In this document: positions 24,299-44,726 of the stretch, piece by piece
Layout: every line of letters starts with the position of its first letter
How positions within the stretch are numbered: position 1 is the stretch's first letter
NCBI GenBank assembly: GCA_018262815.1
Contig: JADFDN010000007.1
Location: 1-45,629 of the forward strand
Direction of reading: 5' to 3'
DNA: 45,629 nucleotides
Source of the DNA: Thiobacillus sp.
GTDB taxonomy: Bacteria > Pseudomonadota > Gammaproteobacteria > Burkholderiales > Thiobacillaceae
Position numbers and translations under genes: made by a program
Notes under the pieces: generated by a model
The model's database searches: none
What the model saw: only the letters and a program-made list of their open reading frames with translations
What the model was told of the DNA's origin: nothing

Positions 24299-24955
24299 AT
24301 GATCGACTGGTCGACCATCGACACCGTCTTCCTCGACATGGACGGCACCCTGCTCGATCTTCACTTCGACAATCATTTCTGGCGCGAGCACATGCCGCGC
24401 CGCTATGCCGAATACCACGGGCTCGACGAGGCGGTGGCGCGCGCCCACCTCGACCAGCACTACGAACGCCACGCCGGCACGCTCAACTGGTACTGCCTGG
24501 ATTTCTGGAGCAGCGAACTGGCGCTCGACATCGTGCAGCTGAAGGAAGAGGTCGTGCACCTGATCGCGGTGCGCCCCGACGTGCCGGCCTTCCTGCAGGC
24601 GCTGCGCGCGTCGGGACGCCGCGTGGTGATGGTGACCAATGCCCACCCCAAAAGTCTCGGCCTGAAAATGCGCGAAACCGGGATCGAAACCTGGTTCGAC
24701 GCGCTGATCTCATCCCATCAGGTCGGCCTGCCCAAGGAGCATCCGGATTTCTGGCAGGGCCTGCAGGCGATCGAGCCGTTCGACAGGACGCGCACCCTGT
24801 TCGTCGACGACAGCCTGCCGGTGCTGGAGAGCGCCCGGGCCTACGGCATTTCCCAGCTGCTGGCGGTGTGCAACCCGGATTCGCGGCAGCCGCACAAGGA
24901 TTGCGGGGCGTTTCAGGGGATTACGAGTTTTGAGCAGGTGATGCCGGGGGGGTGA
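24299..24955 (+). CDS. yrfG: HAD-family GMP/IMP nucleotidase (YrfG-like)
   Basis: DTVFLDMDGTLLDLHFDNHFWREHMPRRYA, VMVTNAHPKSL, LFVDDSLPVLESARAYGI. Confidence 0.88.
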   Translation: MIDWSTIDTVFLDMDGTLLDLHFDNHFWREHMPRRYAEYHGLDEAVARAHLDQHYERHAGTLNWYCLDFWSSELALDIVQLKEEVVHLIAVRPDVPAFLQALRASGRRVVMVTNAHPKSLGLKMRETGIETWFDALISSHQVGLPKEHPDFWQGLQAIEPFDRTRTLFVDDSLPVLESARAYGISQLLAVCNPDSRQPHKDCGAFQGITSFEQVMPGG

Positions 24956-25001
24956 GCTGTCGTTGCGAGGGGCTTAGCGCTGAAGTACCAGTCTTTGGTT
25001 T

Positions 25002-25674
25002 GGCGCGGAGCACGTCCGAGTAGTTGGTTTTTCGCGGGGCTGCTGACCGTTGGCCGGGGGTAGCCCGGCAGCTAGTCACTTTTTTTGTCTCGCCAAGAAA
25101 AGTAACCAAAAGAAGGCGACCCCGACAGTCCCGAATTCCCGAAGATCAAGCGCGTCGGTCGGGCGGCAAAGAACTCGCCCCGCCTTTGATGTTTTTAATT
25201 GGATTGTTGTGGACGGGGCTCAAACACCTTTGCCGCTGATCCACCCGACGCACTTGATCTTCGGCGGGTCTGTAAGGGGAAGAAGGTCAAAATCAGTTTG
25301 CCAATGGGCTGCCGTCGCGAACCGGATCAGGGCTTCGCAGTAAAGCCACCCAATTACACAGACTGCCGCGTCATCACCGACCTGATTTTGACTTTCAGCC
25401 CCTCTCAGTCCCGCCGGAAATCGAGTCTGCCGGGCGGATCAGCGGCAAAGGTGTCTGAGCCCCGCTCACCTTCGAATTCCTGCAAAAGCGGGGCGAGTTC
25501 TTTGCCGCCCGCCCGGCAGGCTCGATTTCCGGGGTTTCGGGGATGAGCGGGGTCGCTTTTTCTTTGGTTACTTTCTTTTGGCGAGACAAAAGAAAGTGAC
25601 TAGCCGCCGGGCTACCCCCGGCCAACGGTCAGCGGTCCCGCAAAGCCAGTAACTACTCAGTGTTGCTCCGCGCC
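25002..25674. repeat. Large foldback element: two ~295-bp imperfect inverted copies (25002-25296 and 25382-25674) around an ~85-bp spacer
   Basis: Reverse complement of 25382-25674 aligns along its whole length to 25002-25296 (e.g. shared CTGACCGTTGGCCGGGGGTAGCCCGGC, GGCGGCAAAGAACTCGCCCCGC, ACACCTTTGCCGCTGATCC). Confidence 0.92.
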
Positions 25675-27609
25675 TACGTCATGCGCCGCAAAAAACCGCT
25701 CCACCACCTCCAGCTTCCGCGTCCGCGTCATCGCCGGCAGCGCATTCAACAACAAGCGCCCATACGGCTTATCCGCCAGCCGCGTATCGCAGATCATCAG
25801 CACCCCGCGATCCGTCTCGGTGCGGATCAGCCGCCCCGCCCCCTGCTTGAGGCTGATCGCCGCATGCGGCAACTGGTAATCCATGAACGGCTTGCCGCCG
25901 TTCTTTTCGGACTGGGCGATGCGCGCAGCGACGACCGGATCGTCCGGCGGCTGGAACGGCAGCTTGTCGATGATGACGACCGACAGCACGTCGCCAGGCA
26001 TGTCGACGCCTTCCCAGAAGCTCTGGCTGCCAAGCAGGACGGCGTTGCCTGCTTTCTGGAAGCGGGAAAGCAGTTCGTTCTTCGGCGCGTCGCCCTGCAC
26101 CAGCAGCGGATACTCCCAGCCGCGAAACTTGAAGGCGTCGGTCAAGAGGCCACGCGCCTTGTCCAGCGCGCGCAGGCTGGTGAACAGGATGAACGCGCGC
26201 CCCTGGCTGATTTCCAGAACTGGAAGCGCGGCTTCCACGACGGCTTCGGTAAACTCGGGAGAATTGGGCGCGGGAAGTTGCTGAGGGACGTAAAGCACAC
26301 CCTGGCGCGGGTAGTCGAAGGGACTGTCGACGCACAGGGTTTCCGCCTCATCGATTCCGAGTCGGGTTTTCAGATGGCTGAAGTCGCCCCCGACCGAAAG
26401 CGTGGCCGAGGTGAGAATCCAAGCCTGCGCGCGTTCGGAGAGCCTGGCGCCGAACATCGCGCCGACGGACAGCGGCGTCGCATGCAGCAGCAATGAGCTC
26501 AGCGTGGTTTCGAGCCAGCGCACGCGCGGATGCTCAGGATCGTCATCGCGTTGCCAGCTGGCCAGCGTGGCCTGCACCGCCTGCGCGCGCTCGAAACAGT
26601 TCTTCAGATCCGCGTCGCGCTCGGCCTGGGTTTCCAGCAGTTTCGCCGTTTCATCCAGCGCCGCGCTCAGCCTCTTCAGCGCGTCCGGCCATTTATCGTA
26701 GCGCGCGAGTTCCGCAGCGGTCGCCTTGACCGGATTCTGCGGAAACGCCAGGCGCAGATCCCGCGCGGCCTTGGTGAGGTCTTCGGCGGCCCGGCGCAGG
26801 GCGGGGAAGTCGCCTGCCTTCACCGCCGCCAGCCGCTTGGTGTCACCGGCCAGATCGAGCAGCTGCGCGACGGACAGGTTTTCGCCGAAAAACTGCGCGG
26901 CGGTTTCGGCAAGCTGATGCGCCTCGTCGAGGATCACGGTGTTGCAGGCGGGCAGCAGTTCGGCGACGCCTTCGTCCTTCAGCCACAGGTCGGCGAAGAA
27001 CAGATGGTGGTTGACCACCACGACTTCCGCGTCGAGCGCGTTCTTGCGCGCAGCCATGACGAAGCAGTCCTTGTAGTGGCTGCACTCGCTGCCGAGACAG
27101 GTATCGCGGCTGGAGACGGCGTAGAGCCAGGCGGTGGCATCCTCGGGAATGCCTTCGGCCTCGGCGCGGTCGCCGCTGGTGCTGGTTTCGGCGAAGCGGG
27201 CGATCTTCTGCAGCCACGCGGCATCGTCGCGGTTTGCGAAGCGTCCGTCGCTCAAATTGCGCTGCAGGTGGTGATGGCAGACGTAGTTTGCGCGCCCCTT
27301 CAGCAGCGCAACCTTGACCGGCGACTTCAATGCGCGCCGTGCGGCTGGCAGGTCGCGATGGAACAGCTGGTCCTGCAGCGCCTTGGTGCCGGTCGAGATC
27401 ACCACCTTGCCGCCCGACAGCAGCGCGGGAATCAGATAGGCCAGGGTCTTGCCGGTGCCGGTGCCGGCTTCGGCCAGCAGCACGCTGTTGTCGGCGACCG
27501 CACGCTCGACCGCCTCGGCCATGGCCAACTGCTGCGGCCGGGCGCGCCAGCCTGGCAGCACCGCGGCGCACGCCCCATCGGGGGAAAATATGTGTTTCAG
27601 ATCAAACAT
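25657..27609 (-). CDS. dinG: ATP-dependent DNA helicase DinG/YoaA family
   Basis: LLAEAGTGTGKTLAYLIPALL, FeS-cysteine region CHHHLQ...CLGSECSHYKDC, VILDEAHQL, GSQSFWEGVDMPGD, QGAGRLIRTETDRG; start taken at MFDLKH. Confidence 0.92.
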   Translation of the reverse strand: MFDLKHIFSPDGACAAVLPGWRARPQQLAMAEAVERAVADNSVLLAEAGTGTGKTLAYLIPALLSGGKVVISTGTKALQDQLFHRDLPAARRALKSPVKVALLKGRANYVCHHHLQRNLSDGRFANRDDAAWLQKIARFAETSTSGDRAEAEGIPEDATAWLYAVSSRDTCLGSECSHYKDCFVMAARKNALDAEVVVVNHHLFFADLWLKDEGVAELLPACNTVILDEAHQLAETAAQFFGENLSVAQLLDLAGDTKRLAAVKAGDFPALRRAAEDLTKAARDLRLAFPQNPVKATAAELARYDKWPDALKRLSAALDETAKLLETQAERDADLKNCFERAQAVQATLASWQRDDDPEHPRVRWLETTLSSLLLHATPLSVGAMFGARLSERAQAWILTSATLSVGGDFSHLKTRLGIDEAETLCVDSPFDYPRQGVLYVPQQLPAPNSPEFTEAVVEAALPVLEISQGRAFILFTSLRALDKARGLLTDAFKFRGWEYPLLVQGDAPKNELLSRFQKAGNAVLLGSQSFWEGVDMPGDVLSVVIIDKLPFQPPDDPVVAARIAQSEKNGGKPFMDYQLPHAAISLKQGAGRLIRTETDRGVLMICDTRLADKPYGRLLLNALPAMTRTRKLEVVERFFAAHDVGAEQH

Positions 27610-27728
27610 TTTTGGACCAGATTTCGAGTCGGAGTGTACCATTCGGTCAAACAGCCCCGACGGTTCTTGTTTCAAGTTTGCCAAGCTATCTGACGTTAGT
27701 TCTATCGATTTCGCTTTTCGGCCTTCTC

Positions 27729-44021: not shown

Positions 44022-44726
44022 CTAGCCCCCGACTTCCTTCCGCGGCCGCCCCACCCCCTTCGAAACCGTGCGGCGCTGCGTCAACTGCTCGATTTCCTCC
44101 TTGAACCCGTCGCTCCCCAGCGCCCAGCCCTTGTGCGTGCAGCCGCGGATGGCTTTCAAATCGTCGTTCGACACCGCCGCGCGGAATAGCAGTCGATAGG
44201 CCGCCTGCCGGTCGGCCGCATTGCGGCCCAGGCGCAGGTATTCCCGGTGCGGCATCAGCCAGTTCGAATTCGGGCCGGATTCGCCTTGCGCGTTGAAGGC
44301 GTGGCTCGACCAAGGGTAGTCTCGGGGATGCGCCACCATCCCCGCTCGCACCGGGTTGAGTTCGATGTAGCGCATCAAGGTCAGCAGATAGCGCTCGCTG
44401 TCCACCACCGTCGCCCGGTAGCGCCCTTCCCACAGCGTGCCACTGCGGTTGTACGTGTAATTGAAGTACTGCACGTATTTTCGCCCCACCGACTGGAAGA
44501 CCTTGCTGATGCTGTCGTCGAATTCAGGCGTGGCCAGCAGGTGGATATGGTTGGTCATCCACACATAGGCGTGGATCGCCAGGCCATGCTTGAGCGAAGC
44601 CTCGACCAGGGCGTCGCGAAAGAACTGGTAGTCCGCCTCAGCGGCGAAGATGGTCTGGCGGTTGTTGCCGCGCTGGATGATGTGCTGCGGGTGACCGGGA
44701 ATGACGTAGCGGGGAAGACGGGCCAT
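44022..44726 (-). mobile_element. REP-associated tyrosine transposase (Y1_Tnp/RAYT)
   Basis: MARLPRYVIPGHPQHIIQRGNNRQTIF; AYVWMTNHIHLLATP (HxH); YIELNPVRAGMVAHPRDYPWSSHAFNA. Confidence 0.92.

Follow-up and report, generated by a model that had tools for sequence, protein, structure and literature searches.

The window, the whole stretch of 45,629 nucleotides of Thiobacillus DNA that was analysed, carries one empty (cargo-less) member of a Thiobacillus element family, in which two inverted arms of ∼270 nt lie either side of a gene slot. Such mirror-image arm pairs, framing single-gene slots whose content varies between species, suggest a type of gene-swapping site not described before. The larger fact, the framing of exchangeable genes by the arms, lies beyond what an earlier note on this DNA had in view. 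On balance we favour the reading that the arms are structured RNAs framing an exchangeable gene slot, with cargo swapped mainly by homologous recombination. If this is right, the arms form a structured RNA family not yet reported (without a match in Rfam or in the literature searched) and tied to gene slots across the genus, and these slots, which collect defence-type and other accessory genes, provide a ready list of candidates and testable sites. The parts of the window element are listed below, where R1 is a covariance model of the main hairpin and the R strand of an arm is the one that reads from the centre of the element towards its outside.

25000–25675, no strand: whole foldback element, two inverted arms and a short null centre (inverted repeats I1, I2, I3 and I7; ORFs; arm profile matches)
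25002–25025, plus strand: left outer shell repeat, pairing with 25651–25674 (I7)
25030–25297, minus strand: left arm, folded strand minus, centre to outside (R1 match, RNA fold)
25053–25074, minus strand: left hairpin C, possible H-type pseudoknot, GCCGGG/CCCGGC plus UAG/CUA (covariation, columns 263–274)
25075–25106, minus strand: left hairpin B, GTCACTTTTTTTG tctcgc CAAGAAAAGTAAC (sequence; covarying columns 239–252, 238–253 and 232–258)
25139–25264, minus strand: left main hairpin A, the left stem of the earlier note, with apical motif GTGTTTGAGC ... GCGAGTTC
25298–25381, no strand: geneless null centre, kept across sites and species in either orientation (14 empty centres compared)
25382–25645, plus strand: right arm, folded strand plus, centre to outside (R1 match, RNA fold)
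25414–25532, plus strand: right main hairpin A, the right stem of the earlier note (inverted repeats, arm alignment)
25567–25600, plus strand: right hairpin B (sequence, RNA fold, covariation scan)
25601–25622, plus strand: right hairpin C, possible pseudoknot UAG 25601–25603/CUA 25612–25614 (sequence, covariation scan)
25651–25674, minus strand: right outer shell repeat (I7)

In a repeat search, I1, I2, I3 and I7 proved to be a single inverted repeat of ∼675 bp with its own hairpin in each arm. The two foldback copies described in the earlier note do each have their own long stem, but they are not independent, being the left and right arms of this one repeat. The same search recovered the stems themselves, at 25139–25158/25245–25264 on the left (20 nt, 95% complementary) and at 25414–25437/25509–25532 on the right (24 nt, 96% complementary). 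With the left copy read from its outer to its inner end, and its counterpart on the right taken from the opposite strand, six stem positions differ, each with a changed partner base (6/6), as had been claimed and far beyond chance. These are positions 4 (A-T to G-C), 6 (G-C to A-T) and 10 (A-T to G-C) of the 12-bp stem, and positions 14 (G-C to C-G), 15 (C-G to T-A) and 17 (T-A to C-G) in the extension. R1 matches the left arm at 25123–25283 on the minus strand (174.6 bits) and the right arm at 25395–25548 on the plus strand (169.7 bits). The element also contains open frames, at 25050–25343 and 25199–25546 on the plus strand (e.g. ...KKSNQKKA...), which are probably spurious; databases may list them as hypothetical proteins.

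The genes converging on the element are, as we read their translations, presumably a HAD-family hydrolase (24299–24955, plus strand) and a dinG-like helicase (25657–27684, minus strand). In most relatives the converging neighbour of dinG is instead a bcp-like peroxiredoxin, and the HAD hydrolase of the window flanks another element site elsewhere; the pairing seen in the window reflects either recombination between two elements or repeat-driven misassembly. The assembly of the window's genome is fragmented (2.5 Mb in 168 contigs, 82% complete), and many of the genomes used are metagenome assemblies, which are prone to misjoins at repeats. Since elements are also present in the isolate T. thioparus DSM 505 (L144) and in two single-contig genomes (G011 and G024), the pattern is not only an artefact of metagenome assembly.

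The arm-profile search gave 60 unique pairs, or 65 with later loci, and all complete pairs (59/59) were inward-facing (+-). Six ++ or -- cases are mostly one arm split by a short insertion or a match gap, and one locus (L191) is a second minus arm beside a pair. About one third of pairs have, as in the window, the conserved geneless null centre of ∼110 bp, generally about 91–123 bp long. The remaining centres, of 220–1320 bp, nearly always hold one ORF, which may lie in either orientation. This cargo is highly diverse (about 36 families in 40 ORFs), and most of the proteins have no Pfam name. Those named comprise HEPN_AbiU2 (twice), CAP12/Pycsar TIR, DUF2971, RDD, DUF695+RraB, DUF3592, DUF4145, P63C, SHOCT and a weak trypsin-like domain. 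Lipoproteins and a TIR effector are among the cargos, the TIR protein being a strong match to the PADLOC candidate PDC-S35; other PADLOC matches were weak.

When elements were grouped by their flanking genes, a limited set of sites was found to be occupied repeatedly. The names that we use for the flanks (trpC, ampD, mpl, bcp, cynS and LysR) are presumptive, coming from reading of translations rather than from a database result. Five unrelated cargos are carried by five species at the trpC site, which lies between trpC and the gene converging on it. Four different cargos occur at the ampD site, four cargos and one null centre at mpl/LysR, and three cargos and two null centres at bcp/dinG. A search of 57 genomes with the joined trpC flanks showed that the element is missing from many species, the join being shorter than 50 bp in at least 11 of these, and at both the bcp/dinG and trpC sites some species have a short palindrome only. 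By eye, short palindromes that keep the element's outer ends (L204, L206, L210, L224, L298 and L306) look like deletions between direct repeats of the arms. One and the same syntenic intergenic site thus holds different single genes, a null centre, shortened palindromes or no element at all, depending on the species. The nearest neighbour of an arm came from the same site in 19/135 cases, against 5.3 expected; this weak tracking of sites fits recombination, and it also fits mobility. At several loci (L065, L075, L284 and others) the arms are directly bordered on the outside by extra short palindromic repeats, in many cases nested as outer shells (GTCATTGCGAGCG..AGCGAAGCAATCCAG; CCGTTCGCCCTGAGC.TGTCGAAGGGC; CCCCCTTTGGAAAAGGGGG), and because of these shells the outer boundary of the element is fuzzy.

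The reading we favour would have a structured RNA pair framing a fixed chromosomal slot, and, with moderate confidence, cargo would be exchanged by homologous recombination, via the shared arms or the flanking genes. Our model for such replacement is the minimal mobile element (MME) of Neisseria (PMC3082526). As with MMEs, different whole-gene cassettes are met at element sites between the same two conserved genes; unlike MMEs, a shared, inverted and structured pair of arms frames each cassette, that frame is repeated at many sites across one genus, and recombination is in the present case inferred. A point against the favoured reading is that movement between sites lacks support, none of the cargo families having been observed at two sites that are clearly unrelated.

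As to function, transcripts of the slot in either direction might end in an arm, which could terminate them, protect them or insulate them from the converging neighbours. Such a role would account for the outward facing of both arms whatever the orientation of the cargo. Gene orientation beside the arms, taken from a simple codon-usage gene caller, showed the outside gene with its 3′ end facing the arm in 114/136 cases. This fits a transcript-ending or insulating role without proving it, and it means that an R-strand transcript of the arm would run antisense into the neighbour. Two negatives speak against the favoured reading: within the element no sigma-70-like promoter was found, nor an intrinsic terminator with a convincing T-tract after the main hairpin.

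The main rival, to which we give a minor share of our belief, is a non-autonomous transposon with passenger genes, resembling a mobile insertion cassette. The arms would be its long terminal inverted repeats, a transposase would act in trans, and the preferred target would be the palindrome between converging genes. Inverted arms do enclose passenger genes, the element is present or absent at the trpC site, and the other palindromes nested as shells around the arms would equally suit insertion into palindromes. However, no transposase or recombinase (Pfam) was found in any scanned cargo protein, the site families are limited and repeatedly occupied, no clear target-site duplication could be seen by eye, and the ends of a transposon need no G.U-biased covariation on one strand of the kind described below. 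A trans-acting enzyme elsewhere in the genome is possible as mobiliser. RAYT/Y1_Tnp or reverse transcriptase in this role was rejected, since neither is consistently associated with the arms or required in the same genome: two genomes with 13 and 14 arms (G072 and G070) have neither Y1_Tnp nor reverse transcriptase, and arms occur without PF01797 in these, in G024 and in others, so that the co-occurrence with RAYT expected of a REP/RAYT system does not hold. The window itself has a Y1_Tnp domain (PF01797, RAYT/IS200-like) at 44361–44684 on the minus strand, inside a 248-aa open frame; no link between this frame and the element was found. Mobile insertion cassettes of the MIC231 type and MITEs share inverted ends, passenger genes and the lack of a transposase with the present elements, whereas arms of ∼270 nt with internal covarying hairpins set the latter apart, and a donor insertion sequence was not identified. 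Similarly, REP/BIME palindromes are repeated intergenic hairpins, often at gene 3′ ends, whilst the arms here are far longer, contain multiple hairpins, have cargo between them and do not depend on RAYT (Y1_Tnp).

A more speculative proposal, which we hold only tentatively, is a gene-capture system not described so far. The outward-facing pair of structured RNAs would mark the slot and help to exchange single genes through an unknown protein or through the RNA itself. The elements would then be a genus-wide, non-integron cassette platform without a recombinase of its own, and the module UGUYUGAGC-helix-GCGAGUUCU would extend more widely in Gamma/Betaproteobacteria. The IS110 bridge RNA, likewise found by covariation, is a structured non-coding RNA encoded within a mobile element (PMC11208160); in contrast, the present elements have no recombinase gene, and the internal loops in Thiobacillus are conserved rather than target-variable. 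Literature searches, with limited coverage of subscription papers, returned nothing matching the arm repeat or similar cassettes.

The case for structured arms rests on an alignment of 99 non-redundant arms (<93% alike, with the window's left arm added). It contains 43 pairs, with 97.1% of cells paired and double changes in 25/43 pairs. Compensatory cells numbered 271, against a mean of 87 in shuffles and at most 47 with slid partners; the observed value exceeds all 500 shuffles and all slid controls, which are simple controls used in place of R-scape on copies that are related and recombining. The covariation is real and the helices are supported. The proposal in the earlier note, that a folded RNA or ssDNA is under selection or is corrected within each hairpin, is borne out as far as the covariation of the 99 copies goes, and correction as the sole cause is disfavoured. 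An unguided general covariation scan also recovered hairpin B, at the three column pairs listed above. In the same scan, an A-T/T-A swap at columns 263–274 (113 versus 30 copies) pairs UAG with CUA inside the loop of GCCGGG-CUACC-CCCGGC, and would fit either an H-type pseudoknot or an alternative hairpin. RNA-fold z-scores of the window arms against shuffles were −8.3 (right) and −7.3 (left), and in 86/99 arms the fold of the R strand is more stable than that of the complementary strand, the structure itself being derived from the R strand. A closing helix, P1, suggested by single-sequence folding, is absent from the top covarying pairs and is not claimed. The Rfam check proposed in the earlier note gave no credible match at gathering or relaxed thresholds, and the arms are likely to be a structured non-coding RNA family new to Rfam. 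At the apices of the main hairpins (25139–25264, minus strand; 25414–25532, plus strand), the conserved UGAGC ... GCGAG strands set two G-A steps opposite each other, which by eye resemble tandem sheared G.A pairs of the kink-turn or loop-E kind.

The strand that folds is the one running from centre to outside. Non-Watson–Crick changes on the R strand are mostly G.U, and the other strand shows the same changes as A.C; raw counts over 150 arms were 340 of the favoured kind versus 42. Placed on a tree, G.U and A.C events in hairpin A numbered 191:34 in total, made up of 124:21 starting from G-C and 67:13 starting from A-U pairs. Although the tree is approximate, because arms recombine, the direction is identical in every informative column, with 31 columns of hairpins A and B together favouring G.U and 0 favouring A.C. 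In unpaired columns, counts divided by consensus base counts gave a per-site skew of only ∼2-fold for C>T over G>A and 1.3-fold for A>G over T>C, against 5–6-fold in paired columns. On terminal branches the G.U:A.C ratio was 35:4 for empty elements and 63:11 for single arms; next to cargo it was 38:4 for arms lying downstream and 28:11 for those lying upstream. Empty elements and single arms share the asymmetry, so structure matters with no cargo present. A pure 3′-UTR role for cargo transcripts is therefore insufficient, and the asymmetry of empty elements, equal to that of arms downstream of cargo, counts against it.

Symmetric palindrome correction predicts no strand preference; it is hence one specific strand that folds, and RNA is its most likely form. 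Conserved apical loops and the covarying possible pseudoknot would favour RNA over ssDNA. An attC-like site of folded ssDNA, where a recombinase recognises one strand of each arm and RNA is irrelevant, seems to us distinctly unlikely. It would show the same strand-specific tolerance of G.T, with the same sign, and the cargo is cassette-like. As in integrons, the single-gene accessory cargo is diverse, including defence-type and membrane proteins, and the ends resemble folded recombination sites; unlike integrons, each gene has two inverted arms rather than one attC, and single slots are scattered over the chromosome. The core RYYYAAC...GTTRRRY, however, was present in 0/150 arms, which rejects identity with integron attC, and the two arms favour the fold on opposite strands, so that no single strand exposes both. 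Quasi-palindrome correction is an established process, and templated correction acts on duplex DNA, where no strand preference is expected. As the sole source of the paired changes, such within-hairpin correction (templated mutagenesis) would account for six perfectly compensated differences between two copies, yet it is very improbable given the asymmetry in 31/31 informative columns, the restorations to Watson–Crick pairs in hairpin A (74 from G.U, 6 from A.C) and the lack of arm-to-arm homogenisation. Nothing points to such homogenisation across the large foldback: left and right arms of one element are 82.5% identical, random arms 82.4%, and mates were nearest neighbours for 7/102 arms, so homogenisation between arms is not the cause. 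The G.U versus A.C asymmetry thus offers a simple sequence test of RNA selection against palindrome correction in inverted repeats.

Arms are present in 54/57 Thiobacillus genomes, 19 being the most in any one of them. When named genomes were scanned for an 18-base stretch of arm sequence, the matches were mostly Thiobacillus and Hydrogenophilales records, including that of T. thioparus DSM 505, whose element lies at the mpl site. R1 also detects arms in two further genera of the family and gives weak matches in a single other family; among 387 class-wide genomes it matched only the window's own. In the more distant elements the two-inverted-arm plan and the apical motif TGTYTGAGC-helix-GCGAGTTC are retained, whereas the long stems have different sequences, also when the two arms of a single element are compared. 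In 8/9 of these arms the R strand is the more stable one. The apical pattern alone occurs in 11/387 class genomes, often several times, against three matches for a reversed control, and these occurrences probably belong to the same element family. Exact matches to CTGTYTGAGC..GCGAGTTC were also present in 56 stretches of contigs from a viral collection (L314–L369), and are either prophage-borne elements or chance. Phage records gave no arm match, and plasmid records gave one, in a Variovorax megaplasmid.
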